Part shown: in pieces, positions 2,507 to 17,727 of the stretch
Position numbering within the stretch: position 1 is the first letter of the stretch
Layout of the letters: every line of letters begins with the position of its first letter
From: Dysosmobacter sp. Marseille-Q4140
Lineage (GTDB): Bacteria > Bacillota > Clostridia > Oscillospirales > Oscillospiraceae
Direction: 5' to 3'
Length of the DNA: 64,000 bases
NCBI GenBank assembly: GCA_018228705.1
Contig: CP073694.1
Location: 1,116,001-1,180,000 of the forward strand
Position numbers and translations under genes: made by a program
Notes under the pieces: model-generated
Told to the model about the DNA's origin: nothing
Database searches by the model: none
Seen by the model: the letters and a program-made list of their open reading frames with translations, nothing else

Positions 2507-4672
2507 TCAGGGTTTCTTCCGATTGGGTGGCTTGCGCTCCGTCACAGGCCGCTTTTGGGGCTGCGTGTGGCGGGACGGCGTGGATTTGTAGCGCATAGTT
2601 TCCACCGTCGTCGTCTGCAGCTTGTCGCCATCGTAGACCGGCCTGCCGTCCTCATAGACGGGCCGGCGCTCCACAGCGGGCGTGCCGGGGATGGCGTACC
2701 ACTGGCTGCCGCCGCTGTCTTCAAACACATGGTAGTCGCCGCGTGGCGCCTGATACATGGTCCGGTCGTAGAAAGCCGTTCCGGTGCCGTCCTCGTGGCG
2801 CACCTCCAGAATACCGTCGGCGGACCGGGAGCTGTCCACAGACACCACCGGCTGGTCGAAGCCAGGCATGAACTGGCCAAAGAGCGCCGCGTTGTACTGG
2901 GCAGATGGGCTCAGACCACCACCCGACGGCGCCGGTGTCTCCGGCTCGAACTCCGGGACTGCGGCAGCCGGCGTCATCGCGTACCAGCTCAGGCCGTCCG
3001 CACCCTGGATAACCTCATGGGGCGCATCCGGCTCCTGGAAGTAGGCGCTGTTGTACCAAAGGCTGTTCCCGCCATCCGGGTAACTGGCCTCCAGAGTCCC
3101 TTCGTCCACCTGCCGCAGCAGGGTGCCGTCCGGTGCGCTGGGGAATGCCTCGGCGACCTGGGCCGCCTCGGACACATCGCCAGTAAAGGCGGGCGTGGCA
3201 TAGAAGGCGCCCATGCCCTCTCCGGAGGCAACCTGATACCACTGACTCCCGTCGGCGGCCGTGACCACCGTGTGCGGCGTGCTTGGCGCCTCATGCTGGG
3301 CGGTACTGTATAGGTCTACCTTGGCCTGCCGCCCATCCGGCGCGGTGGCGGTGGTACTGATGTGCCCGCCGGTGATCTGGGTGCCGGAATAGGTCATATT
3401 GGCCGCGGCTCCCCCCGCCAGCTGGGGCATATAGCCCGGAATGCTACGGTCGGCGATCTCTCCGCCGATGGTGCCGGAGACGTTGGGTGGCCGCGTGGCC
3501 ACAGAGGATATGGAGTTTGACGTCAGCGTGGCCCCGTTGCGGGCCGCCATGCCGCCGAAGGCCCTGCCCACGAAGCCTACGCCGCCGCCCGCGCCCATCC
3601 GGCTCCCGCCGTCCACCACGGCATCGCGGACAAAGCTGTTGGGTCGGTATCGGTTCATGAAGCCGGACAGGATCCCTCCGGCGGCGACACCGCCGGCCGT
3701 TCCGGCAGCAGCAGCACCGGCGCCGCCCCGCGCTCCCCCTCCGAATACGGAAGCGGCATTCCCGCCTCCGCCTCTGGAGAAGCCGGTCAGCACCCGGGCA
3801 GCCATCAGCATCTCCATGCCCATACTGCTGCCCGTCTGGGCCACAGACAGGCCAAGTGCCGCCAGATAGCTGTCGCATTTCTGGGCAATCTTCAGCAGCG
3901 CCAGGGCACAAAAGAGCCATAGGAAGATATTGCCTTGGCCATTGGTCAGCGCGCCGCCGTTGGCAATGAACTGGCCGACCGACGAGTTGAAGGCGCGCAG
4001 GAACCACACATTGAGCACCAGGAGCAGCAGTTGGGAGCCGACCATCCGGCACCAGCTCTGGAAGACCCGCGAGGTGGCTTTAGACGCGCCCATGGCGTAG
4101 GCAAGCGGCGAGGTATAGCAGAGAACGCCCACGAGCACATACCGCTCCACAGTTTCCAGAAGCAATTTGAAGTAGTTCCAGGCCAGGGCGATCATCAGGA
4201 TAATCAAAAGGATCAGGCCGACCACCGTGGATACTGAGACGAGGGTGGTCAGCCCATTGGTGAGCGCCTGCTCGATCCCCGCGAAGGTAAAATCGCCGGG
4301 ATCCAGCGTGGAGTCCATGAGCGCCGTGTACGGCGCCCGCGCGATGTCCAGGGCGAGGCTGAAGATGGGTTTTGCATAGGCGATTAAAAAGCCGAAAATC
4401 GCGCCCCGCGCCAGAATTGCAAGAGGGTTCTCCGTCTCCGCCAGCGGGCCGCTGAAGGCGCGGAAGATCTGCCAGACCGCCACCAGAAAGAGCAGCGCCC
4501 AGGCCGTGTACTGGATGATGGTGTAGGCACTGACAGCGAATGGGAAGTATTCCTCCATCGCGGTCATGTCCGTGCCCAGTGCCCCGATGAACACCCCGGA
4601 GATGGCATCCATGATCTGGGTCATCACGCTGGCCACCCAGGTCGCTATGCCCTCAAAGATCCAATCTAACAT
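2507..4672 (-). CDS. VirB6/TrbL-like polytopic conjugation protein with a long soluble tail
   Basis: 721 residues. The N-terminal ~290 residues contain about six hydrophobic segments (roughly 49-72, 88-110, 141-170, 178-197, 211-228, 248-262), as in VirB6/TrbL channel proteins. A Gly/Ala-rich linker (about 300-375) follows, then a 340-residue soluble tail ending in a basic, Pro-rich stretch. The tail holds three degenerate repeats, each ending in a D-G-x-x-W-Y type motif (W478/Y479, W563/Y564, and S-G-G-S-Q-W-Y at 658/659). GAGG precedes the ATG. The VirB6 role is inferred from topology and from its place just upstream of the C40 hydrolase; the tail function is unknown. Confidence 0.78.
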   Translation of the reverse strand: MLDWIFEGIATWVASVMTQIMDAISGVFIGALGTDMTAMEEYFPFAVSAYTIIQYTAWALLFLVAVWQIFRAFSGPLAETENPLAILARGAIFGFLIAYAKPIFSLALDIARAPYTALMDSTLDPGDFTFAGIEQALTNGLTTLVSVSTVVGLILLIILMIALAWNYFKLLLETVERYVLVGVLCYTSPLAYAMGASKATSRVFQSWCRMVGSQLLLLVLNVWFLRAFNSSVGQFIANGGALTNGQGNIFLWLFCALALLKIAQKCDSYLAALGLSVAQTGSSMGMEMLMAARVLTGFSRGGGGNAASVFGGGARGGAGAAAAGTAGGVAAGGILSGFMNRYRPNSFVRDAVVDGGSRMGAGGGVGFVGRAFGGMAARNGATLTSNSISSVATRPPNVSGTIGGEIADRSIPGYMPQLAGGAAANMTYSGTQITGGHISTTATAPDGRQAKVDLYSTAQHEAPSTPHTVVTAADGSQWYQVASGEGMGAFYATPAFTGDVSEAAQVAEAFPSAPDGTLLRQVDEGTLEASYPDGGNSLWYNSAYFQEPDAPHEVIQGADGLSWYAMTPAAAVPEFEPETPAPSGGGLSPSAQYNAALFGQFMPGFDQPVVSVDSSRSADGILEVRHEDGTGTAFYDRTMYQAPRGDYHVFEDSGGSQWYAIPGTPAVERRPVYEDGRPVYDGDKLQTTTVETMRYKSTPSRHTQPQKRPVTERKPPNRKKP

Positions 4673-4737: not shown

Positions 4738-7700
4738 TTAGTAGCCTGTCCGGGGCAGGGTCGGGACCGGGCCGCCGCGGTAGATGATGGTCACCCACCG
4801 GTCAGTCGCCTGGATCCACTGATTCCGCCACATACCGCCCACATCGCACTTGTTGGCGAAGCGGTATTCGTGGGGCAGGTCGGACAGGACATCACAATAA
4901 ATGTACGGAGTCTCCACCTGCCGGAAGCCGCCGGGGACACGGCCGAACAGGAAGGTGACCTGGGTCACATACTCGTTGGAGGCCAGCCCAAGCGCCGCCG
5001 GGGAGGCGTCCAGGGTATAGTTCTGCAAGGTGTTCAGGTTGTCGGCCAGCACCCGCTGGGTGTTGGAGAGGTTGGTCTGGAACACGACTTTGTAGTTCAG
5101 CCGGGCCGAATAGGTGCCAGTGATGATCTTATCCAGCCGCACGGCATCGGTCGGCAGCGTGTCGCGCCAGTAGAAGCTGTCCAGCGGAACGGTGGAGTTG
5201 TTGGCGATGTCCTTGAAGGTGTAGCGGATCTCCTGGCCGGGCACGACTTCTGTGTAGCCGCTCTTGCCGATGGACACATTGGTGTAGACGCTCTCGTTGA
5301 GGAACTCGATCTGAACAATCTGGCCCTCATGCTCCAGATACACCGTCACTTCTTCCTCGCTGACGGAGTAATACTGGGGACTGGACACTTCCTTCACGAT
5401 ATAGCGGCCCAGAGGCAGCGGCTTAGACACCGCAAGTCCCCTGCTGTTGCTCTCGATGGTATCCACAAGGGCATTGGCTTTGTTGTAGATCTCAAACACC
5501 GCGCCTTCCAGCGGGGTCCCGGCCGGGAAGCCGTTGATGGCATTGTCGTCCGCGGACTTCTTCCAGATCTGGATCTGGGCTGTGATAGGCGTGTTCTCCC
5601 ACTCGATCTCGGTGGTAGCCCCGTCCCGGATATAGACGGTCTTCAGCTCATCATCCACCAGGTAGCCTTCGTTGTCCAACTCTCGGACATAGTAGCGCCC
5701 GCTGGAGAGTCCCTCAACATAGACATAGCCCCGGTCATCGCTGACGTATTCGCCGATGGGGTTTTTACTGCTGTCATACACCAAGAAATGCGCGCCATAG
5801 ATCCCTTCTCCGGTGGTAGAATCAACCTTATGGATGAGAAGACCGCTGAACGCCTCATTCTCAATGCTGATAGAGGTGGTCTTGCCGTTTTCAACCTCGA
5901 AATAATGCGGCGTATCGTCTAAGCGATACCCCTCCCCTGCCTCGATCTCAACGGCGTAGTAGGCGCCGTTCTCAAGAGCGCAGAACACACGGCCATTTTT
6001 ATCCGTCGTGACGGTGTCGATCAGTTCATCGTCGATCTTTCTAATTTCAAAGGTCGTGTTCGGGATCCGCTTGCTGGTTCGGTTGGCATCAACCTTCAGG
6101 ATCTCCACACCGCCGATGGGATCGTTATACACCGTGATCGTCTGGGTGTCCTCGGGGTTGACCTCCACCGTCTGGATGCGGGTTGCCTCGTCGATGGTGT
6201 ACCCCTCAATCGTCTTGGTCTCCTTGATCACGATAGTTCCAGTCACGCCGCTGATGCGGATCTCGCCGTTCTGGTCGGTCGTGTAGAGGCCCTTGCTGGA
6301 AAGGTGCCCGTTGGCGTCGTCCACATAGCCCCCGTCCGCATAGGTCAGTTCAAACTCCACCCCGGCCAGAGGCTCATGGGTTTCGGAGTCCAGTTTCCGG
6401 ATGACGAGGGTGCCCTGCTTGCTGTTGTAAAACCGGAGGATCTGCACCTCGCCGGCCTTGATTTTAATCGACTTCGGGGCGCCGTCCAGGACGTAGCCCT
6501 CCAGCGTTTTGATCTCCCGGGCGGTGACAGTGGTACCGGGCTCCAGATCGTCGATCACGATTCGGCCCGCCTCGTCAGTGATATATTCGCCGTTGGATGG
6601 ACCGACCACCGCGCCGGAGCTGTCGGTCACCAGGAAGGTAACGCCCTCCAGAGGCGTAGTAGTGCCTTCGATGTACTTCTCAATGACGAGGGTCGTCGAG
6701 GGGGTATTGGTAAAGTAGAGCGTCTGTGTGTCGTTGGGATTGACCTGGACGGTCTGCGTCTGATGGGCCGGGTCGATGGTGTAGCCGGGGATGGTCTCCA
6801 CCTCCGTCACCACCAAGGTACCCACCACCCCGTCGATCTGGATATTGCCGTCCTTGTCCGTCTTGTAGAGGCCATTACTTGAAATGTAGCCGTTCTCGTC
6901 GGGGACAAATTCGCCGGTAGAAGTAGTGACCTTGAACGTTACTCCCTCCAGCGGCTCCCCTGTCAAAGAATCCCGCTTGTCGATGACCAGGGACCCGGCC
7001 TTGGAGTTGGTAATGACCACCGTCTGAGTATCGCCGCCCTCTCCAATGACCACATTGGTGGAGGGGGCGTCCATCACATAGCCGGACGGGCTGCGGATCT
7101 CAGAAATGACGTATGCCCCGGGGGCCAGATTAGTGATGCGGATTTCTCCATTGCTGTCGGTCGTAAAAATACCGTTCTGGGTGAGGGTGGAATCACCGAT
7201 TACCCCATCCAAGCCCACCTCGCAGCCGGCGGCGGTTGTAACTCTGAACTCCGCACCGGGGAGGGGCTGCTTTGTGGCGCTGTCCCGTTTCTGGATGATC
7301 AGCTCGCCCTTGGGCTGGTTCTTAAAGGTTAATGTGACAGTTCTGCCCTCTTTAATCTGCACCGTCTGACTCTGTGTGTCGATGATATAGCCCGGCGGCG
7401 CGGAGACCTCCGTGACGATGACGCTCTTGCCGGGGGCCAGACCCTCAATTCGGATCTCACCGTTTTCATCTGTCCTAAAAATGCCGTTGCTGTCGCCGAT
7501 GAGGGTGCCGTCCGCATAGGTGACTTTGAACTCGGCATTAGGAAGGGTAACGCTGGGGTTGGTGGCGCAGACCTTGCGGACGAGCAAAATCCCGTCCGGC
7601 ATATTCTGGAACCTCACGGTGATTACGGACTGCTCGCCGCTGTCGGCCAGGTAGACCGTCTCAGAGGACTGGATAATGCTGTATCCATCCGCCGGATCCA

Positions 7701-10335
7701 CTTCTTCCAAAATATAGGTGCCCGCAGTGAGGCCGGTCCAGATGGCGGTGCCGTTTTGCCCGGTCACTTTCTGCCCGATGATGGTTCCTCCGGTGCCCGA
7801 GGTACCACCCAAAAATCTCAGTTGGAAGGTGGCCCCAGCCAAGGCTTCACCGGTGACGGAATCATACTTCTCGACAATAATTGCGTTGAGCGGCGTATTC
7901 TCAAAACGCACCGTCTTGCTCTCGCCGCCGTGGAGGATGACTGTCTGGCGGGTGGGCTCCTTCATCTGGAACCCAGGGGCAGGCTCAACTTCCTCGATGG
8001 TAAACTCGCCGGGGTACAGTCGCTGGCCCTGCTCGTGGAGCTTGATCTCGCCGTTGGCATCGGTGACGATCTCGCCATAGTCGATGGTGGCAGGTGCATC
8101 TGCGGCTTCGCCATTGCTGGCATAGGTCACGTGAAAACGCGCCCCCTCAACAGGAGCGCCTGCAATACTGTCCACCTTATAAATGGTGAGTTCCGGGGCC
8201 TTGTGGTCCTTGAACGTCACCTCTTTATCATCGCCGGCATTGAGCGTGATCGTCTGCTCCCGGTCTGCGTCCTTATCGGGGAGGTAGTAGGGGGCCGGAA
8301 CGGACAGCTCTGTGATTTTGTATGTGCCCGGCTGAACCCGCAGGGTGACGGTGCCATCCTGGCCGGTGGTCACATCATGCTGATAATCGCCGTCGATTGC
8401 CTCGATCCGAAAGACGGTGCCGGGGATCGGGGTGGTAGAGTCCGCGGCGTCTACTTTTGCAATCGTCAGCTCCGGCTGCTTGAGGTTATCAAAAATCAAC
8501 TGACGGTCATCGCCAGGGCCCAGCCAGATGGTCTGAGTCGGCTCCGCCGCCACCACATAGGGGTCCGGGACGGAGATCTCCGTCACCTCGTAGCTGTCAA
8601 CGGGGAGGCCGGTCAGGGTCGCGGTGCCGTCCGGCCCGGTGGTCACATCCATGTGGTAGCCGTAATGAATGCCAGTGATTTCAAACACCGCGCCGGGGAC
8701 CACCTCACCCGTCTGTCCGTCCCGCTTGAGGATGGTGAGGGTCGGAAGCATCTGATCCACCGCCGTGACAGTGACGGTGCCGCCGCCGTCCACAGTGGCC
8801 TGATCCACATGGGCGATGACCGGCTGCTGCAGTTTGGCATACGGGGCCGGGACAGATACCTCGAAAAAGGCGTACATCCCCTCGGTAACATTGGGAACGA
8901 TGATGCTGCCGTCCGCGTCGGTGGCCTCCGTGGCAACCACCTGGCCGTCTTTGACCACATTGAACACGGCGCCCTCGATGGGGTCATCTGAGTCATCCAG
9001 CTTGATCAGCTGAACTTTGACCTTGGCGTCGTTTTCAAAAATCAAATCGACATCATGCTTGCCGTCCCAGTAGAACTCCTGGCGGACCTTGTCAGGATCA
9101 CTGCTGGTGGTGTACCCATTCGGCGGGGTCACCTCAGACGCGACAAAAGAACCAATAGGCATGGCATCCCAGGGCACGTCCTCCAGGTAGCCCCCTGCGC
9201 CGGTGATGTACGTGCCCACGAACTCATTGTCCACGCCCTCGATCTTGATGACCGCGCCGGCCAGGCCCTTGGTGGGATCATCGGCATCGACTTTGCGGAT
9301 GCTGCCTTCGCCCGTACGGATAGGGGTGTCAGTGAAGGTCACAGTTGCAGTCGTTTCACCAGTAGCGCTGGGCAGAACGACATACTGAGGGCCGGCATTG
9401 TCGATTTGGTAATTATCCGGCGGATCCAGTTCCGTCACAGAGTAAGTCGAGGCCTCCAGATTGGTGATCGTCACAGTTCCATCACTTCCGGTGACGACTT
9501 CCTGGCTAAAAGTGCCGTTGGCATTCTGCACCAGGAACCGGGCGCCGGGGAGCGCAAGGTTGGGATTGGTCGCATCCACCTTTTTGACGGTCATCTGGTA
9601 CCGCTCCCGTGTGACGGTCAAGTCGCCAATGATGATGCTCTGAACATCATAGGCCGGATGCTGGGCGGAACCGGGGCCGGCGTAGTCGTACTCGTAGACT
9701 TTACAGTCGCCCCAGACGCCCTGGGCTCCCAGATCCAAAATATACTGCGCCCGGTCGCGCAGAGTGGTCCCGTCTACAACGTCGTCAATACTGGTGTAGT
9801 TGGTGTGCTCCAGATTGTTATAAACGTATAGCAGCTCCTCGGCGCAGGCAGCTACCGGATCAGAGAAGAGATTCTCCTGATAGCGCCACACCACCGCCTG
9901 CACCCAGGCGTTCATGGTCCAGGTATAGTCGCTGCTCCAGACCTCGTCCACCCCCAGGGCGCGGGCCTGGTCCGTGAAGATCCCGCGGCTGTGGGCATAG
10001 AAATACGCCAGCATGGTCTTCACGGTGGGGTCGGTAATTTCCCTGGGATTGTTCCATTCATGCCCCTCAAGTGACCAGCCCATGCCGCCTCCGTGATCGG
10101 CACAAAATCCCATGACGGTGTCACCGTTGTAGTCGAATTTCATCTGGTGCAGCCAACAGGTGCTAAGGGCAGCAGACTCATAATAGACACCGTTATGCGT
10201 GCAATCCTCCATAACGATGGTATTGGGGCCGGCCGCGAAAGCGGTGCTGGGCAGGAGTCCGAGCATGCAGATCAGCGCCAGCAGGATACAAACGAGGCGC
10301 TTTTGCGCAGCAGGAAATTGTTTCAGTTTTTCCAT
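4738..10335 (-). CDS. Giant thioester-domain surface adhesin with ~15 Cna-B (SpaA) modules and terminal LPRTGY
   Basis: 1,865 residues. A signal peptide (1-34, cut near STAFA) leads into a thioester domain with candidate bond-forming Cys78 (GFCADHG) and Gln146 (WVQAVVW), the TQXA-type signature used for covalent attachment to a target surface. From about residue 246 to 1681 come roughly 15 Cna-B/SpaA modules of ~96 residues, each opening with a strand such as LVIDKRDS and closing with an Asn strand (F-x-N), the Lys/Glu/Asn pattern of self-forming isopeptide bonds. A C-terminal domain of ~184 residues ends exactly in LPRTGY. The usual hydrophobic segment and charged tail after LPxTG are absent. 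A sortase is encoded two genes upstream. AAGGAG precedes the ATG. Confidence 0.93.
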   Translation of the reverse strand: MEKLKQFPAAQKRLVCILLALICMLGLLPSTAFAAGPNTIVMEDCTHNGVYYESAALSTCWLHQMKFDYNGDTVMGFCADHGGGMGWSLEGHEWNNPREITDPTVKTMLAYFYAHSRGIFTDQARALGVDEVWSSDYTWTMNAWVQAVVWRYQENLFSDPVAACAEELLYVYNNLEHTNYTSIDDVVDGTTLRDRAQYILDLGAQGVWGDCKVYEYDYAGPGSAQHPAYDVQSIIIGDLTVTRERYQMTVKKVDATNPNLALPGARFLVQNANGTFSQEVVTGSDGTVTITNLEASTYSVTELDPPDNYQIDNAGPQYVVLPSATGETTATVTFTDTPIRTGEGSIRKVDADDPTKGLAGAVIKIEGVDNEFVGTYITGAGGYLEDVPWDAMPIGSFVASEVTPPNGYTTSSDPDKVRQEFYWDGKHDVDLIFENDAKVKVQLIKLDDSDDPIEGAVFNVVKDGQVVATEATDADGSIIVPNVTEGMYAFFEVSVPAPYAKLQQPVIAHVDQATVDGGGTVTVTAVDQMLPTLTILKRDGQTGEVVPGAVFEITGIHYGYHMDVTTGPDGTATLTGLPVDSYEVTEISVPDPYVVAAEPTQTIWLGPGDDRQLIFDNLKQPELTIAKVDAADSTTPIPGTVFRIEAIDGDYQHDVTTGQDGTVTLRVQPGTYKITELSVPAPYYLPDKDADREQTITLNAGDDKEVTFKDHKAPELTIYKVDSIAGAPVEGARFHVTYASNGEAADAPATIDYGEIVTDANGEIKLHEQGQRLYPGEFTIEEVEPAPGFQMKEPTRQTVILHGGESKTVRFENTPLNAIIVEKYDSVTGEALAGATFQLRFLGGTSGTGGTIIGQKVTGQNGTAIWTGLTAGTYILEEVDPADGYSIIQSSETVYLADSGEQSVITVRFQNMPDGILLVRKVCATNPSVTLPNAEFKVTYADGTLIGDSNGIFRTDENGEIRIEGLAPGKSVIVTEVSAPPGYIIDTQSQTVQIKEGRTVTLTFKNQPKGELIIQKRDSATKQPLPGAEFRVTTAAGCEVGLDGVIGDSTLTQNGIFTTDSNGEIRITNLAPGAYVISEIRSPSGYVMDAPSTNVVIGEGGDTQTVVITNSKAGSLVIDKRDSLTGEPLEGVTFKVTTSTGEFVPDENGYISSNGLYKTDKDGNIQIDGVVGTLVVTEVETIPGYTIDPAHQTQTVQVNPNDTQTLYFTNTPSTTLVIEKYIEGTTTPLEGVTFLVTDSSGAVVGPSNGEYITDEAGRIVIDDLEPGTTVTAREIKTLEGYVLDGAPKSIKIKAGEVQILRFYNSKQGTLVIRKLDSETHEPLAGVEFELTYADGGYVDDANGHLSSKGLYTTDQNGEIRISGVTGTIVIKETKTIEGYTIDEATRIQTVEVNPEDTQTITVYNDPIGGVEILKVDANRTSKRIPNTTFEIRKIDDELIDTVTTDKNGRVFCALENGAYYAVEIEAGEGYRLDDTPHYFEVENGKTTSISIENEAFSGLLIHKVDSTTGEGIYGAHFLVYDSSKNPIGEYVSDDRGYVYVEGLSSGRYYVRELDNEGYLVDDELKTVYIRDGATTEIEWENTPITAQIQIWKKSADDNAINGFPAGTPLEGAVFEIYNKANALVDTIESNSRGLAVSKPLPLGRYIVKEVSSPQYYSVSEEEVTVYLEHEGQIVQIEFLNESVYTNVSIGKSGYTEVVPGQEIRYTFKDIANNSTVPLDSFYWRDTLPTDAVRLDKIITGTYSARLNYKVVFQTNLSNTQRVLADNLNTLQNYTLDASPAALGLASNEYVTQVTFLFGRVPGGFRQVETPYIYCDVLSDLPHEYRFANKCDVGGMWRNQWIQATDRWVTIIYRGGPVPTLPRTGY

Positions 10336-10372
10336 GCAGATAAACTCCTTTTCTCGAAAATTGTGTAAGAAA

Positions 10373-10402
10373 AAAGCCTCCCAGCTGCTGCTGGAAGGCT
10401 TT
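10373..10402 (-). terminator. Terminator after the CAP-domain gene
   Basis: A stem of AAAGCCT plus flanking pairs with a short loop, followed by six T on the minus strand. It sits between the CAP gene stop and the giant adhesin gene, so it may lower or separate adhesin expression. Confidence 0.75.
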
Positions 10403-10416
10403 CCGCGTTTGAGGTA

Positions 10417-11676
10417 TTATGCGTATGGATTGATGGTGCCGGACATTCCGACAAATAAATAGCAGTAGGTCACCCCCTCATACCGCACCACACCGACGCC
10501 CAGACTGTCCGCCTTTGGGTCGAGCATTGCTCGCAGATGCCCAGGGGAGTTTACCCAGTTTTTCACTGCGGTTTTGGCAACATCCTCCGCGGTCACGCTG
10601 GTAAATACTGTTAAATTGCAGCTGAACCCATAGGGATATCCATGAGCGAGGACAAGCTCACACTCCTCCTGGCTGTCGTGCCAGGTGTTCCGGCGCGTGG
10701 CATAGTCCTGAGCCGCGTCCATGAGCGACTGATCGGCCGGGGCTGCGGACTGGCCGTATTTCTGCCGGACCTGATTGACAAGGGCAAGGATCTCTGTTCG
10801 GATCTCCAGGTTATCTGCGTAATCAGTTCCTGCTGCCGGCCGACCTTCGTCAACATCGGATACCGTGATCGTAAGACGGCCCTGTTCCCCGTCTGCCGCA
10901 ACTACAAAAATGCTTGCAGTACCGGGCGACTTTGCGACCGCGACCCAATTCCCGGCGATCTGCTCTACCGTAAGGATTTCCGGATTGCTGGATACCAGCT
11001 CAAGTTGCGCGTCCGACGGATAGACCAGCAGGCCGCTTCGTGTACCCGCCTTCAGGATGTTCCCCTTGTAGCTACTGATGGAAACAGATGCTCCGGTCGC
11101 TCCAGCGGAGGTCCTCTGGAAGTTTCCGGTCAGTGCGCGGTATAGCATGACCGCAAGATCACCGCGGGATATGGTTCCCTGAGCCGTCATAGCAGGCTCA
11201 CTTAGGCCAAGATCACAGGCGGTGCTACAGGCGCTGTTGTAATCCCACACCAGGTCTGGCAGAGCCAGATACCGCAGAATCACGGTGCAGGCTGCCGTGG
11301 GCGTCACAGGATCCTCCGCGCCAAACAGGCCATCGCCATAGCCGACCATGAGGCCGTGGTAGGCGCAGTAACCGGCATATTGCCGGGCCCAGTCTGGAAC
11401 GTCCTGAAATTGGCACTGGGCGGCATAGAAGTCTCGGCTTTCCTCCACCTGTCCGGAGCCGCCGTGCAGCCGTGCAAGAATCGTGGCCAGATGGGCGCGG
11501 GTCAGCGGGGCGCTGAAGTTCATATTCCCCTCCCCGTCCCCGACCATGATCCCATGACTGTTCAGGTACTGCGAAGCGGCTTTCAGTTCTTTGTTGCTGC
11601 TTTCCGCCGCATACGCCGGCAGGGCCAAAGAAAGCGAAAAGACGGCAGTAAACAGCAGGATGGGCAGTTTACGCAT
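10417..11676 (-). CDS. Secreted SLH - Big-like - CAP (SCP/PR1) domain protein
   Basis: 419 residues with a signal peptide (1-23, ALPAYAA). Three S-layer-homology-like repeats follow (about 30-70, 85-145 and 148-185), which usually bind secondary cell-wall polymer. A Big-type beta domain is suggested at about 195-275 (LVYPSDAQLELVSS to LTITVSD). The last ~130 residues are a CAP domain (TEILALVNQVRQKYG, TAVKNWVNSPGHL), a secreted fold of unclear biochemical role in bacteria. Its place between the sortase and the adhesin suggests a cell-surface role in mating contact, which is inference. A GGGGGAA element lies before the ATG. Confidence 0.85.
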   Translation of the reverse strand: MRKLPILLFTAVFSLSLALPAYAAESSNKELKAASQYLNSHGIMVGDGEGNMNFSAPLTRAHLATILARLHGGSGQVEESRDFYAAQCQFQDVPDWARQYAGYCAYHGLMVGYGDGLFGAEDPVTPTAACTVILRYLALPDLVWDYNSACSTACDLGLSEPAMTAQGTISRGDLAVMLYRALTGNFQRTSAGATGASVSISSYKGNILKAGTRSGLLVYPSDAQLELVSSNPEILTVEQIAGNWVAVAKSPGTASIFVVAADGEQGRLTITVSDVDEGRPAAGTDYADNLEIRTEILALVNQVRQKYGQSAAPADQSLMDAAQDYATRRNTWHDSQEECELVLAHGYPYGFSCNLTVFTSVTAEDVAKTAVKNWVNSPGHLRAMLDPKADSLGVGVVRYEGVTYCYLFVGMSGTINPYA

Positions 11677-11745
11677 ACTGATTCCCCCTTTTCTTGATAT
11701 TTGACTTAATTACATCGAAAAGAGGTCAGTTTTGCAAAAATACTG

Positions 11746-12534
11746 TCAGGTGATCTCCCGGGCCTGCACGCACCAGCGCATCTCCGGCACATTTCGGACA
11801 CAGGTGATCAGCGTGATCATATTCTCGCTGCTCCGGCCCAGGCGGGAGAAATCCGTTTCTTCAATCTGCCCCACATAGAACACCTCATAGGTGCGCGTGC
11901 CGAGCTTCGTGGTGTAAGTGATCTTGTCGCCGTCCTCCAGGGTGTGGATCTGTCCAAAGTGGTTGGCCACACCTCTGTTATGGCCCGCAAGCCCAACATT
12001 GCCGTCCCAGCAGGAGGTGGATTTGAAATGCCCGGCGCCTTTGGCAAGGCTCTCCAGGCTTTCGTCCTCATACACCTTGACGGAAAGCCCCAGAGAGGGG
12101 ATCTTCAGCCGGCCCAGGCTGCCGTCCTCATAAAAGAGGCCGTCCGGGAGGGTGAACTTGTTGCTGCTCAGGCTGGTATCCGCGGCCGGGGTGCTTTCAT
12201 CGTAGGACGCCGGCGGCAGGTAGATTGTTTCACCGCTGATGGTGCTGCTGCCAGTTGATGTTCCGGACTGGGGGATCAGTGTCGTGCCGGCACCAGGCAG
12301 ATAGGACTCCGGACTGCCGAAAGGCGGCGCAATGACGGCGGTATTCTTGCTGCGGTCGATGTTACTGCTCTCCGTCACCCCTCGGCCAACCACGATCACC
12401 TGGTCAACGGAGGTGGGCGGAGCATACATGGGGCCGTCCGAGTCGTCAAACTCATACTCCGCCGCCAGTGCCGGGGTCGCCATCATCGCTGTGATGGCCA
12501 GCAGCAGCATCGTTGCTTTCAGCCAGTTCCTCAT
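11746..12534 (-). CDS. Sortase, probably class B/D-like
   Basis: 262 residues. An N-terminal hydrophobic segment (1-24) ends in PALAA, so it might even be cleaved; there is no C-terminal span. A low-complexity linker runs to about residue 135, followed by the sortase barrel with the full catalytic set: His185 (GLAGHNRG), Cys245 (TLITCVRN) and Arg253 (EMRWC). It should cleave an LPxTG-type motif and join the product to an amino group on the wall or another protein. The obvious substrate is the LPRTGY-ending adhesin encoded two genes downstream. The ATG has AAGGAG upstream and lies 83 bases inside the preceding gene. Confidence 0.88.
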   Translation of the reverse strand: MRNWLKATMLLLAITAMMATPALAAEYEFDDSDGPMYAPPTSVDQVIVVGRGVTESSNIDRSKNTAVIAPPFGSPESYLPGAGTTLIPQSGTSTGSSTISGETIYLPPASYDESTPAADTSLSSNKFTLPDGLFYEDGSLGRLKIPSLGLSVKVYEDESLESLAKGAGHFKSTSCWDGNVGLAGHNRGVANHFGQIHTLEDGDKITYTTKLGTRTYEVFYVGQIEETDFSRLGRSSENMITLITCVRNVPEMRWCVQAREIT

Positions 12535-13457: not shown

Positions 13458-13850
13458 TCAGGGAGTAGTCGACGGCGTGTACTGTCCGCCCTGAATCAGC
13501 GGCTGCAGGTAGGCGACCACAAAGCCCAGGGTATTGAGCACGATCCAGGTCACGACGATTCTCTTCAGCCAACTGGTCGCCTCTGCGACGGCCCGCTCAT
13601 TGCGGGAGATCATCCGCACCAACAGCGCCACCGCAGCCGCAGTCACTGCCACGATGGTAGAGATGCCCACCAGCTCGCCATAGACATCTGCGATAATCGT
13701 GCTGAACCGTGTCCACATGGTGTCCGCAGCAGCCGCCGGCTGGGCGAACAGCACCATCATGTAACAGGATACCGCCGCCATCTGGAAAGCGTTGCGCAGC
13801 CGTTGGGACGCCTTCACCCAGCGATCCCTCCTGCTCTCGTCCTTTGCCAT
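13458..13850 (-). CDS. VirB2/TrbC-like pilin or channel subunit candidate
   Basis: 130 residues. A basic N-terminus precedes a hydrophobic signal-like segment (about 24-42, ending QPAAAADT), then two more hydrophobic segments (about 57-78 and 94-115) separated by a short polar loop. This is the pattern of VirB2/TrbC-type subunits, whose leader is removed and which then form the conjugative pilus or pore. AAGGAGGG lies just before the ATG. It is followed by envelope genes and, further on, VirB6, VirB1, VirB3 and VirB4 analogues. Assignment is by topology and gene order. Confidence 0.62.
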   Translation of the reverse strand: MAKDESRRDRWVKASQRLRNAFQMAAVSCYMMVLFAQPAAAADTMWTRFSTIIADVYGELVGISTIVAVTAAAVALLVRMISRNERAVAEATSWLKRIVVTWIVLNTLGFVVAYLQPLIQGGQYTPSTTP

Positions 13851-14041
13851 TTGCTTCCCTCCTTTTCGTCATATTTGCAGCAAAGAGCCGCCTCGAAGCG
13901 ACTGTTCTCAATCACTTCAAGGCGGCTCCCTGCCGTCAGGTCCAGTTTTGGACGATAACAGGATAGCACATCTGCACTCCCCTTGTCATCCGCACCGACC
14001 TTGCCAATTTTCTGCCATTTTTCTGCCGCAGAGTAGGACAT
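13814..14041 (-). CDS. Possible 75-residue ICE protein, translationally coupled
   Basis: The ATG at 14041 overlaps the TGA stop of the upstream gene (TGATG) and has GGAGGGG just before it, a strong coupling signal. The product starts MSYSAAEKWQKIGKVGADD and has no membrane segment, three Cys and a basic C-terminus. It overlaps the pilin-candidate start by 37 bases. A long RNA hairpin (13885-13928) lies inside it, so the reading frame could be incidental. I do not recognise a family. Confidence 0.48.
   Translation of the reverse strand: MSYSAAEKWQKIGKVGADDKGSADVLSCYRPKLDLTAGSRLEVIENSRFEAALCCKYDEKEGSKWQRTRAGGIAG
13885..13928 (-). promoter_or_regulatory. 17-bp RNA hairpin upstream of the pilin candidate
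   Basis: Two 17-base arms around a 10-base loop. In minus-strand RNA all 17 positions pair, two as G-U wobbles; in plus-strand RNA those two become C-A mismatches. This asymmetry points to a structure that works in the ICE transcript. A short T-rich stretch (CTTTG) follows, weaker than a normal terminator. It could be a processing/stability element or partial terminator between the regulatory genes and the transfer genes. Confidence 0.55.
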
Positions 14042-14667
14042 CACCCCTCCAGCAGCGTCAAAAGCTCCAGCCAGGCATCCAGACAGCCGGCTGGGGCCGT
14101 CCACAGCCGGATGGATAAGATGTTGACCGCCTGCTGGCGGAGCCGGTAATAGTGCCGCTCCGAGATATCCAGCCGGTACAGGATATCCGTATGGCTGGGC
14201 TTGTCCGGCGTGATGAACGTCTGGAAGATGATGTTATACATCAGCTCCCCGTTGCCCGGCTTATGGCGCAGGACCGTCAGGGCCTCATTGATCCGGTCCA
14301 GCAGCAGGCGGGACTTCCGAATGCTGAGCAGGCGGTGCTCCAACTTCGCGTTCCCCAGCGCCACCTGCGTGTCCACTACGCTGAGCAGCGCGTCCAGATC
14401 CTTCAGCGGCTGATCCAGCTCCTGTGCGACTTCACTGGGGAAGCATTCCAAGGCCCAGACGATGTCCCGGTAGTGCTTGAGCATGACCTGGGTGTTATGG
14501 TACATATTCCGGCGAAGCTCCTGCTCCGCAAGCCGGGCTTTCGCATTGGGGATGTCCGGATCTCCCACGATCCCCCTGCGCTCCAGCAAGGCGCGCAGCT
14601 GCTCCTGGGGGATCGCACTATCCTGATTCGGCAGTTCACCACAGAGGGATGCCTTCAAATCTGCCAT
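14041..14667 (-). CDS. ICE protein with a probable C-terminal helix-turn-helix
   Basis: 208 residues from the ATG at 14667, which has GGAGG eight bases upstream; a longer frame reaching 14778 lacks such a site. The protein is largely helical and charged, without membrane segments. Residues ~165-195 (HTDILYRLDISERHYYRLR) read like a sigma-4 or ArpU-type helix-turn-helix, in which a short helix is followed by a recognition helix with S-x-R-x-Y-Y. It starts 31 bases inside the preceding gene and ends in a TGATG overlap with the next, so it belongs to the same operon. A transcriptional regulator is likely; the target is unknown. Confidence 0.6.
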   Translation of the reverse strand: MADLKASLCGELPNQDSAIPQEQLRALLERRGIVGDPDIPNAKARLAEQELRRNMYHNTQVMLKHYRDIVWALECFPSEVAQELDQPLKDLDALLSVVDTQVALGNAKLEHRLLSIRKSRLLLDRINEALTVLRHKPGNGELMYNIIFQTFITPDKPSHTDILYRLDISERHYYRLRQQAVNILSIRLWTAPAGCLDAWLELLTLLEG

Positions 14668-15703
14668 TTTCAATACCTCCATCATCCTGATCCGCAGGCC
14701 CGGCCCGTGGCAAGGTTCCGCGGAATAATTCAAAATTTGGCGTCGCTGGAGATATCCCTTGGCAGTCCTCCCTAACATACTCTAAAATCTTACACGGAGA
14801 AAAATACGCGCGCGTAATATAGCAGTCCTCAGATGCAACACGGCGCTCCTCTTGTTCCCGGGGCAGCACTGCACGACTGTACCAAGCGACCAGCTTGCAG
14901 ATGCGAGCATGGTCGCTCTGCTGGTTTTCGTGCGTATTCCCGTCTTTTGTGCGTATTTCTCTCAAAATGCGCTCGACTTTGTCCTGGGACGGCAAGGTGA
15001 ATTGTTCTCCAGTCGGATAGACTGCATTGAAGATGAGGCAGCCGAAAGCGCCTGGCAGCTTATACAGCGGGAAGGCATCCGCATGTTTTCTGAAAAAGCG
15101 CCAGACCTTCGTCTTTTCCCATCCCCAACGCCTGCCAAGGGATTCCAATGTCAAAACAGCGCCGTACTGCCCAAACTGAACAGCCGGTGCCGAGAAGGAA
15201 AACGCATTGCTGGGCTCCTGCCAAACTGTGTGGCACCAGAGGTCGAGCCATGCGTCTGCCTCAGCAAATTGATAATGCCGCTCTGCAAGCCTCTGTGTGA
15301 CGTTCCTGGGCAGGCAGAGGAATCCATACCCCTCTGTCGCATAAACCGCCTCACGGCCCATACAGGGCTCGCCAGAGCATCTTACGACCCAATCTGTGAC
15401 TTGATAGGTCAGTTTCTTTGTTTTTGTGTCCAGTGAGTAGGTAATATAACCGAGGTCAGCCAGAGTGTCCATATGTTCAAGGGCCTGCCGCCGACGTTTG
15501 ATTGCCAGGATACTCTTCAGACCGACGATGCCGCCTGCCCAGCCCCCGGCACTCACTTTGTTGGTGTAACCGCAGTACCGGGCCTGCCCAGTCCTAAAGG
15601 CTGCACGGGAGGCCAATCGAGCCCAAGAGGCCATAATGCCCTTGCCGGGCGGAAGCTGATTGCGGGGTAGTTTGACCCATTGATATTTGAGCAGGCACTT
15701 CAT
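14636..15703 (-). CDS. ICE protein, probable winged-helix DNA-binding or replication-related
   Basis: 355 residues with a good GGAGGGAGG before the ATG. No signal peptide or membrane span is seen. Residues ~50-110 (a Lys/Arg-rich helix then GYITYSLDTKTKKLTYQVTDW) look like a winged-helix, and a second one is suggested around TLESLGRRWGWEKTKVWRF. Proteins of this kind occur near the regulatory end of Tn1549-like elements. Two wing-like units would fit a replication initiator or regulator. I do not recognise a named family, so treat the function as open. It is the first gene of the leftward operon, 28 bases after a terminator-like hairpin. Confidence 0.55.
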   Translation of the reverse strand: MKCLLKYQWVKLPRNQLPPGKGIMASWARLASRAAFRTGQARYCGYTNKVSAGGWAGGIVGLKSILAIKRRRQALEHMDTLADLGYITYSLDTKTKKLTYQVTDWVVRCSGEPCMGREAVYATEGYGFLCLPRNVTQRLAERHYQFAEADAWLDLWCHTVWQEPSNAFSFSAPAVQFGQYGAVLTLESLGRRWGWEKTKVWRFFRKHADAFPLYKLPGAFGCLIFNAVYPTGEQFTLPSQDKVERILREIRTKDGNTHENQQSDHARICKLVAWYSRAVLPREQEERRVASEDCYITRAYFSPCKILEYVREDCQGISPATPNFELFRGTLPRAGPADQDDGGIENGRFEGIPLW

Positions 15704-16227: not shown

Positions 16228-17727
16228 TTAATCCAGTGGCTTCATCGTCGGGAAGAGGATCACTTCCCGGATGGTGTCGGCCCCGGTCAGGAGCATGACG
16301 CACCGGTCGATGCCCATGCCCATGCCGCCGGTGGGCGGCATGCCGTACTCCAGGGCGGTGAGGAAGTCCTCGTCCAGCATCTCCGTCTCCTCGTCGCCCC
16401 GCTCCCGCTGCTCCACCTGCTTTTCAAAGCGCTCTCGCTGGTCGATGGGGTCGTTGAGCTCGGAGTAGGCGTTGGCCAGCTCGCTGCGGCAGATGAACAG
16501 CTCGAACCGCTCGGTGAGCCGGGGATCCGCCGGGCTGCGCTTGGTCAGCGGAGACACCTCCACCGGGTACATGGTGATAAAGGTGGGCTGGACCAGCTGC
16601 TCCTCCACCTTCTGGTCAAAGCAGGCGTACAGGGCGTTGCCCCAGGTCTTTTCGGCGGCGTCCGCCAGCTCCACACCGATGGCCTTGGCAGCGGAGACGG
16701 CCTCGGCGTCGTCGGTGATGGCGCCGAAGTCCACTCCGGCATACTCCTTCACGGCGTCCACCATGGTCAGCCGGCGCCAGCCGGGGGTCAGGTCGATGTC
16801 CTCGCCCTGCCACTGGACCTGATAGGTGCCCAGGATGGCCTGGGCAGCGCCGGAGAGGATGCCCTCGGCAATGTCCATCATGCCGTGGAAATCCGTGTAG
16901 GCCTGGTACAGCTCCACGGTGGTAAACTCGGGGTTGTGCTTGGGGTCCATACCCTCGTTGCGGAAGATGCGGCCGATCTCATACACCCGGTCCATGCCGC
17001 CCACGATCAGCCGCTTCAGGGGCAGCTCCGTGGCGATGCGCATATACATGTCGATGTCCAGGGTGTTGTGGTGGGTGATGAAGGGCCGGGCGGCGGCGCC
17101 GCCGGCGATGGTGTTCAAAACCGGGGTCTCCACCTCAATATAGCCCATGTCGTCCAGGTAGTTGCGCATGAACTTGATAAACCGGGATCGGATGGCGAAA
17201 TTGCGCTTGACCTCCGGGTTCACCATCAGGTCCACATACCGCTGGCGGAAGCGCAGCTCCTTGTCCTGGAGGCCGTGGAACTTCTCCGGCAGGGGCAGCA
17301 GGGACTTGCTCAGCAGGGTAATGGTCTTCGCCCGAACGCTCATCTCGCCCCGCTGGGTGCGGAACACCTCGCCGTCCACGCCCACAATGTCGCCGATGTC
17401 GTACTTCTTGAACTGCTTGTAGATCTCCTCATCCATCTCGTCCTGACGGGCGTAGAGCTGGATGCGGCCGTCGCGGTCCTGGAGGTCGCAGAAGCTGACC
17501 TTGCCCATGCCCCGCTTGCTCATGAGGCGCCCGGCCACCTTGACGCTCTGGCCCTCCAGAGCGTCAAAATTCTCCTTGATCTGAGCGGAGGTGTGGTCCC
17601 AGTCGAAGCGGGTGATCTGGAAGGGGTCCCGGCCCTCGGCCTGGAGGGCCGCCAGCTTCTCCCGGCGGACCTTGCTCTGCTGGCTCAGGTCCTGCTCGGG
17701 CTGCTGGTTCGTCTTTTGTTCAGCCAT
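16228..17727 (-). CDS. lysS: Lysyl-tRNA synthetase, class II
   Basis: 499 residues, the normal length for a bacterial class II LysRS, which charges tRNA-Lys in the cytoplasm. An N-terminal OB-fold anticodon-binding domain (about 60-165) precedes the catalytic core, with motif 2 at RIFRNEGMD and motif 3 at GMGIDRCVML, and the family-typical FRQRYVDLM. It starts 12 bases after the greA stop, so greA-lysS form one operon driven by the promoter at 18304-18332. The gene is complete; the ICE boundary lies just beyond its stop codon. Confidence 0.98.
   Translation of the reverse strand: MAEQKTNQQPEQDLSQQSKVRREKLAALQAEGRDPFQITRFDWDHTSAQIKENFDALEGQSVKVAGRLMSKRGMGKVSFCDLQDRDGRIQLYARQDEMDEEIYKQFKKYDIGDIVGVDGEVFRTQRGEMSVRAKTITLLSKSLLPLPEKFHGLQDKELRFRQRYVDLMVNPEVKRNFAIRSRFIKFMRNYLDDMGYIEVETPVLNTIAGGAAARPFITHHNTLDIDMYMRIATELPLKRLIVGGMDRVYEIGRIFRNEGMDPKHNPEFTTVELYQAYTDFHGMMDIAEGILSGAAQAILGTYQVQWQGEDIDLTPGWRRLTMVDAVKEYAGVDFGAITDDAEAVSAAKAIGVELADAAEKTWGNALYACFDQKVEEQLVQPTFITMYPVEVSPLTKRSPADPRLTERFELFICRSELANAYSELNDPIDQRERFEKQVEQRERGDEETEMLDEDFLTALEYGMPPTGGMGMGIDRCVMLLTGADTIREVILFPTMKPLD

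Follow-up and report, generated by a model that had tools for sequence, protein, structure and literature searches.

How does a conjugative element display a giant adhesin when the protein ends on its sorting motif and has no membrane tail of its own? The question is raised by a stretch of 64,000 nucleotides from Dysosmobacter sp. Marseille-Q4140 (assembly GCA_018228705.1, contig CP073694.1, positions 1,116,001 to 1,180,000; hereafter the window, in whose numbering coordinates are given). A section of a conjugation operon on its minus strand, delineated by a list of open reading frames (ORFs) and scans with Pfam and NCBIfam, encodes an adhesin of 1865 residues (4738-10335), a sortase, a CAP-type protein and a protein termed P323. 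The adhesin consists of a signal peptide, a thioester domain, 15 SpaA/Cna-B repeats, a C-terminal domain and the final residues LPRTGY. Judged from sequence, the module may be a self-contained display kit for a mating adhesin, a reading to which a probability of about 0.6 is given.

The original prediction placed three genes at 4738..12534, encoding the adhesin, an SLH-CAP protein and the sortase, and all three were borne out as minus-strand ORFs. A fourth gene, P323 (12452-13423), belongs to the module as well and had been missed. The earlier observation is thus partly confirmed: it is real, with corrections.

A sortase motif without a membrane tail

Sortase substrates are usually spotted in genomes by an LPXTG motif followed by a membrane tail. 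The adhesin has the LPXTG-type motif near its C-terminus and lacks the hydrophobic segment and charged tail of canonical substrates: its sequence ends in PVPTLPRTGY, with a single residue after the motif and the stop codon directly behind it (LPRTGY, 4741..4758, from the sequence and a frame check). No membrane segment is encoded in any frame of the 65-base gap between this stop and the next gene. The motif is preceded by a domain of ~190 residues common to cassette adhesins (about residues 1680-1859, 4759..5298, in the window), as seen in an alignment of 29 sequences that includes L003 and leaves out L006 (L numbers denote collected loci).

Two protein searches (E 0.001 or better, 120 relatives listed in each) put this end in a wider frame. 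The first, with the thioester region, counted 2011 relatives; 116 of the 120 listed end in LPRTGY or LPKTGY, and the four that do not are fused to other transfer proteins. The second, started from a diverged relative, counted 2014, of which 96 of the 120 listed end in one of these two motifs; the remaining 24 end otherwise, all without an LPxTG-type motif within the last 60 residues. Since each search counted about 2,000 relatives, the thioester region is common in public data.

Within the order, 394 genomes were searched with a P323 profile, which matched at 49 places in 30 of them. The 46 places examined comprise 42 of the 49 together with four loci (L001, L004, L007, L008) drawn from other collections; L001 and L006 are near-copies. 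The adhesin's C-terminus is covered in 32 of the 46, and in 29 of these complete adhesins the last residues are LPxTG and an aromatic Tyr, Trp or Phe (MPKTGY in one case), whereas a membrane tail is present in none of the 32. The three exceptions are L084 and L095, which end without the motif, and L105, where a different frame encodes it a short way downstream. A second SpaA ORF bears the motif in L088 and L093. Among the 14 places without an adhesin end, nine are cut by contig ends, and no adhesin was found in the fetched stretches of L082, L101, L108, L110 and L116. None of 2095 other ORFs of at least 150 residues, in the loci collected at that stage, ends in the motif.

Once the rule had been formed, 391 genomes were searched at class level for a second sample; P323 turned up in 11, two of which were not new. 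The eleven new stretches contain seven complete adhesins, and every one of the seven lacks a tail; they end in MPRTGY (three, one of them on a separate downstream ORF), LPRTGC (two), LPRSGW and LPQTGF (one each), and amount to five distinct cases, because L203/L204 and L208/L209 are near-copies. In the remaining four stretches, the adhesin is either open at its end (two) or not seen (two). With an aromatic last residue in five of the seven and Cys in two, this residue is usually, not universally, aromatic in cassette adhesins. As these adhesins are tailless, the rule of LPXTG plus membrane tail misses a family of giant surface proteins.

Related elements without the cassette

The controls were elements with a related VirB6 and no P323 in the fetched stretch. 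Their SpaA adhesins carry membrane tails in all eight clear cases (L122, L133, L142, L143, L144, L145, L152, L153; the tail of L145 was called by eye, having been missed by the threshold of the script), and seven of the eight have a PxTGD-type motif. A model of the cassette C-terminal domain finds no match in any of the eight. The ninth control, L137, has the cassette C-terminal domain and LPQTGG, behind which come ~20 residues that form no membrane segment; it was counted as ambiguous because its genome encodes P323 on another contig. With L137 scored as not tailless, 29 of 32 cassette adhesins compare with 0 of 9 controls (Fisher p 6e-7, kinship between the elements being ignored).

The cassette sortase

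That a sortase is encoded within the module was confirmed by matches of the 262-residue protein (11746-12534) to Pfam Sortase (E 1.1e-22, 80.5 bits over a cut-off of 26.6) and TIGR01076 (53.9 bits over 39.35). The models for class C, D and E sortases score 44.6-56.7 bits, all below their cut-offs of 140-165. His185, Cys245 and Arg253 are invariant in seven sequences. The protein has a cleavable-type signal peptide, and by a crude topology rule (AxA-type site, no further membrane segment) the same holds for 48 of 51 full-length cassette sortases. The exceptions are L208 and L209, with a plain membrane anchor, and L206, read in one frame with P323; two further cassette sortase matches are partial and stand outside the 51. 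Sortases elsewhere in some of the same genomes, inspected by eye, mostly have uncleaved membrane anchors or class C topology, which is absent from the cassette sortases, unlike L162 and L163. One genome, Pseudoflavonifractor sp. An184 (G001), has four P323 cassettes (C72, C77, C79, C130), and all four sortases detected in it lie within them.

P323 and the CAP-type protein

P323 has a signal peptide, a beta-rich domain and one membrane segment near the C-terminus, and no family match in Pfam, NCBIfam or PHROGs. A model built from 39 sequences (mean predicted local distance difference test score, pLDDT, 88.1; predicted template modelling score, pTM, 0.57) has an elongated, mostly beta domain and one helix near the C-terminal end, which is taken for the membrane segment. 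Fold comparison of this model returned nothing useful.

The CAP-type gene is a less constant companion, detected in 23 of the 46 places. The 419-residue protein of the window (10417-11676) contains Pfam CAP and one SLH stretch, in keeping with its earlier description as an SLH-CAP protein, a name that does not extend to the group: among ten CAP-type proteins tested, seven have Pfam CAP and only one, from the near-identical element L002, has SLH, and a copper-amine-oxidase-type domain was detected in six (in one above cut-off). All eight aligned proteins (window, L001, L003 and L008 included) have a CAP domain that terminates in a conserved NPY and one more residue, and the N-terminal part differs between lineages.

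Thioester domain and stalk of the adhesin

The thioester-like domain (residues 36-245, 9601..10230) is recognised neither by Pfam (TED) nor by sequence searches against the PDB, so its identity rests on the predicted fold, which matches known thioester domains (model pLDDT 78.8). In the adhesins of other cassettes, Pfam TED was detected in eight of ten, seven above cut-off. The original prediction paired Cys78 with Gln146. Cys78 (10102..10104) stands up well: its context FCAD fits the motif [YFL]C plus a hydrophobic and a hydrophilic residue, and it is invariant in seven aligned relatives and in an alignment of ten. Gln146 (9898..9900), however, lies in VQAVVW, which resembles the third thioester-domain motif, TQxxPhiW, whose Gln and Trp were not essential for the bond in a tested domain (PMC4450167, PMC6194298, the sources also of the [YFL]C motif and the bond-forming Gln motif). 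Gln146 is thus probably the wrong partner. By motif and range count, Gln232 (9640..9642) is the more likely one: DVQSII fits the bond-forming motif, and the Cys78-Gln232 spacing of 154 residues is near that of SfbI (Cys109-Gln261) and PnTIE (Cys94-Gln247). All three sites are invariant in the ten aligned sequences; in the 120 further relatives listed, the Cys and DVQ patterns occur in 120 of 120 and the QxxPhiW pattern in 119. There is good reason to expect that a Cys78-Gln232 thioester forms. The spacing and the class I domains among the fold matches hint at class I, in a comparison list that contained no class II structures.

The stalk (about residues 248-1670, 5326..9594) contains 15 SpaA stretches (Pfam E 1.9e-205). 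A candidate Lys and Glu of the Cna-B isopeptide triad are present in all 15, and a terminal Asn/Asp was located by script in 13 and by visual inspection in the remaining two, in agreement with the ~15 isopeptide-type modules described earlier. With an N-terminal thioester domain bearing Cys/Gln motifs and a Cna-B repeat stalk, the adhesin has two features of TIE proteins. Repeat number varies widely among cassette adhesins; those of L203 and L204, with 3832 and 3834 residues, have 36 SpaA repeats. Seven proteins (P0132, P0133, P0139, P0149-P0151, P0200) are shortened adhesins that all end in RFVP, as if one mobile sequence had inserted within the repeats.

Operon context and distribution

The genes are transcribed in the following order: two that match no Pfam family above cut-off (14636-15703, 14041-14778), then a VirB2/TrbC-like pilin candidate (13458-13850; Pfam 21.4 bits, below the cut-off of 27.9), P323, the sortase, the SLH-CAP protein, the adhesin, a VirB6-like membrane protein (2507-4672), an NlpC/P60 cell-wall hydrolase (893-2446, from Pfam), a small membrane protein (451-960) and, cut by the edge of the window, the first part of a VirB4-like gene. 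Neither Pfam nor NCBIfam matches the VirB6-like gene; VirB6 and VirB4 are names given on reading and in the earlier annotation, not on the strength of a family match. The P323 and sortase genes overlap by 83 bases, and the remaining gaps, from the pilin through the VirB6-like gene, measure 34 to 81 bases. The predicted location within a conjugation operon, flanked by VirB2-like and VirB6-like genes, therefore stands, with the pilin match below the Pfam cut-off and VirB6 named by reading. Upstream, identity to L002 falls from ~98% to ~80-86% near 16.25 kb (16228-16275), and homology to L082 stops at 16275, the 3' end of what we take to be a lysyl-tRNA synthetase gene; judging by these sequence breaks, 16228-16275 is probably the element's end and integration site.

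The sortase gene follows P323 in 43 of the 46 places; it was not detected in L082, L108 and the contig-truncated L102. The cassette lies between the VirB2-like and VirB6-like genes in the window, L002 and L078, downstream of VirB6 in L097, L099, L100 and L104, and upstream of both in L106, L107 and L109, where the adhesin precedes P323. The original prediction had counted absence of the module from most related integrative and conjugative elements, combined with no effect on transfer, against itself. Among nine VirB6 relatives (62-100% identity), only two have the cassette between VirB2 and VirB6 and seven lack the module there; yet in six of these seven a SpaA-repeat adhesin is present at another site of the fetched stretch. 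An adhesin is accordingly usual, and the cassette is one of two ways of equipping the element with it. Between the window and L001, the adhesins are 79% identical and P323 and sortase 46-50%, a difference which suggests that adhesins are exchanged between elements. In L082 (5160-6566) and in P0001, P0002, P0004 and P0005, sequence of P323 or the adhesin runs straight into coupling-protein or VirB4-like sequence, and the right-hand joining point is common to L082 and P0001; these fusions are either deletion derivatives or chimeric assemblies.

Proposed mechanism and alternatives

The module could serve mating in the following manner: The adhesin would be exported by Sec and, lacking a tail of its own, kept at the membrane through its conserved C-terminal domain, which P323 may grip. 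The cassette sortase would cut between Thr and Gly, releasing a Gly-Tyr dipeptide, and join the adhesin to an amino group near the type IV secretion system (T4SS), on a peptidoglycan precursor, P323 or a channel protein. With its isopeptide locks, the stalk would then keep the thioester domain (Cys78-Gln232) at a distance from the cell, and the thioester may bond an amine on the recipient or a nearby surface, stabilising the mating contact. The steps differ in strength. The LPxTG end is quite probably a substrate of the cassette sortase, and a role of the adhesin in mating contact is likely. A little short of even odds are given to split sorting, in which P323, gripping the C-terminal domain, would replace the substrate's membrane tail, a secreted sortase would recognise LPxTG, an aromatic residue and the free carboxyl end, and the kit would free the element from the host's sortase; P323 as dock or acceptor of the adhesin is a tentative assignment.

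The tailless end may also not be anchored at all, the adhesin being secreted or held non-covalently, as proposed for TIEpLS20 of plasmid pLS20, and the sortase trimming or joining soluble proteins. TIEpLS20 is described as lacking a sorting signal and functioning without host sortases (PMC8092201), nothing known would hold a tailless substrate for the sortase, and the cassette sortase itself looks secreted; but the conservation of an exact sortase motif in 29 of 32 and 7 of 7 adhesins, despite variable X and last residue, and the coupling of the motif-ended adhesin to a sortase gene make this explanation unlikely. Polymerisation of the adhesin into a pilus, which would account for the resemblance of SpaA repeats to pilin domains (NCBIfam iso_D2_wall_anc) and for the weak class C, D and E matches of the sortase, is very improbable, given that the window's module has one giant adhesin and no second pilin and that class C membrane topology is missing from the cassette sortases.

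A different doubt concerns the partner that is bound. Known thioester adhesins bind host proteins, as SfbI does fibrinogen (PMC4450167), and putative collagen-binding sortase substrates on C. difficile conjugative elements have been read as colonisation factors (PMC6814731). Instead of binding mating partners, the adhesin could thus be cargo with which the host bacterium attaches to gut tissue, mucus or food particles. The genes, however, lie inside the transfer operon, closely spaced from the VirB2-like to the VirB6-like gene, related backbones also carry such an adhesin, and the pLS20 relative acts in mating; a pure cargo role therefore seems improbable, and it is possible that the adhesin has both uses.

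If the pairing of these tailless adhesins with a secreted sortase and P323 holds true, the self-contained display kit would be a new way of fixing proteins to Gram-positive surfaces, might offer a short, tail-free tag for protein ligation and would give a testable answer to how gut conjugative elements hold their mating partners. Split sorting, if true, would allow a covalent mating adhesin to be displayed in hosts without a sortase.

Comparison with known systems

The closest precedent is pLS20 of B. subtilis, whose conjugation operon encodes the thioester adhesin TIEpLS20 (p34). According to PMC8092201, its deletion lowers transfer ~1000-fold in liquid and 15-fold on solid medium, and a Cys68Ser variant fails to restore transfer, Cys68 being needed for function. 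Because pLS20 has a thioester adhesin needed for conjugation, the main idea of the original prediction is of a known kind. Its thioester and Cna-B adhesin within a conjugation operon is supported as a kind by this precedent, by the predicted thioester fold and by the conserved Cys, whereas its Gln is probably wrong; the interpretation as a whole is partly supported.

Sortase-anchored TIE proteins such as BaTIE and SfbI (PMC6194298, PMC4450167) likewise have an N-terminal thioester domain, an isopeptide stalk and LPXTG near the C-terminus. As described in these sources, they are found mostly as host-binding adhesins and carry the motif in a C-terminal wall signal, which in BaTIE includes a membrane-spanning segment (PMC8092201); in the window's adhesin, the motif is the very end. 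PrgB of pCF10 is also a surface adhesin that promotes mating contact in Gram-positive conjugation, but it is LPXTG-anchored and has a polymer adhesin domain instead of a thioester (PMC8092201, PMC12857230). A 2025 review of T4SSs presents LPxTG adhesins with PrgB as the main example, and the word thioester is absent from the part of its text available (PMC12857230). The C. difficile 023_CTn elements are conjugative and have a sortase with Cna-B substrates; their reported motifs are of the I/TPKTG kind, and the available part of PMC6814731 describes nothing like P323. In a literature search, no account of a secreted sortase paired with tailless LPxTG substrates came up.

TIEpLS20 and the window's adhesin have in common a thioester domain with a Cna-type stalk, expression from a conjugation operon and the lack of a membrane-tailed sorting signal. 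The present finding bears on a question raised by pLS20: how a tailless conjugation adhesin stays on the cell. TIEpLS20 has 778 residues, three predicted Cna domains and a class II thioester domain, no LPXTG motif and, as reported, no sortase gene on its plasmid (PMC8092201); the adhesin of the window has 15 repeats, class I-like spacing and an LPRTGY end. New with respect to pLS20 are the sortase of its own, the tailless LPxTG end and P323.
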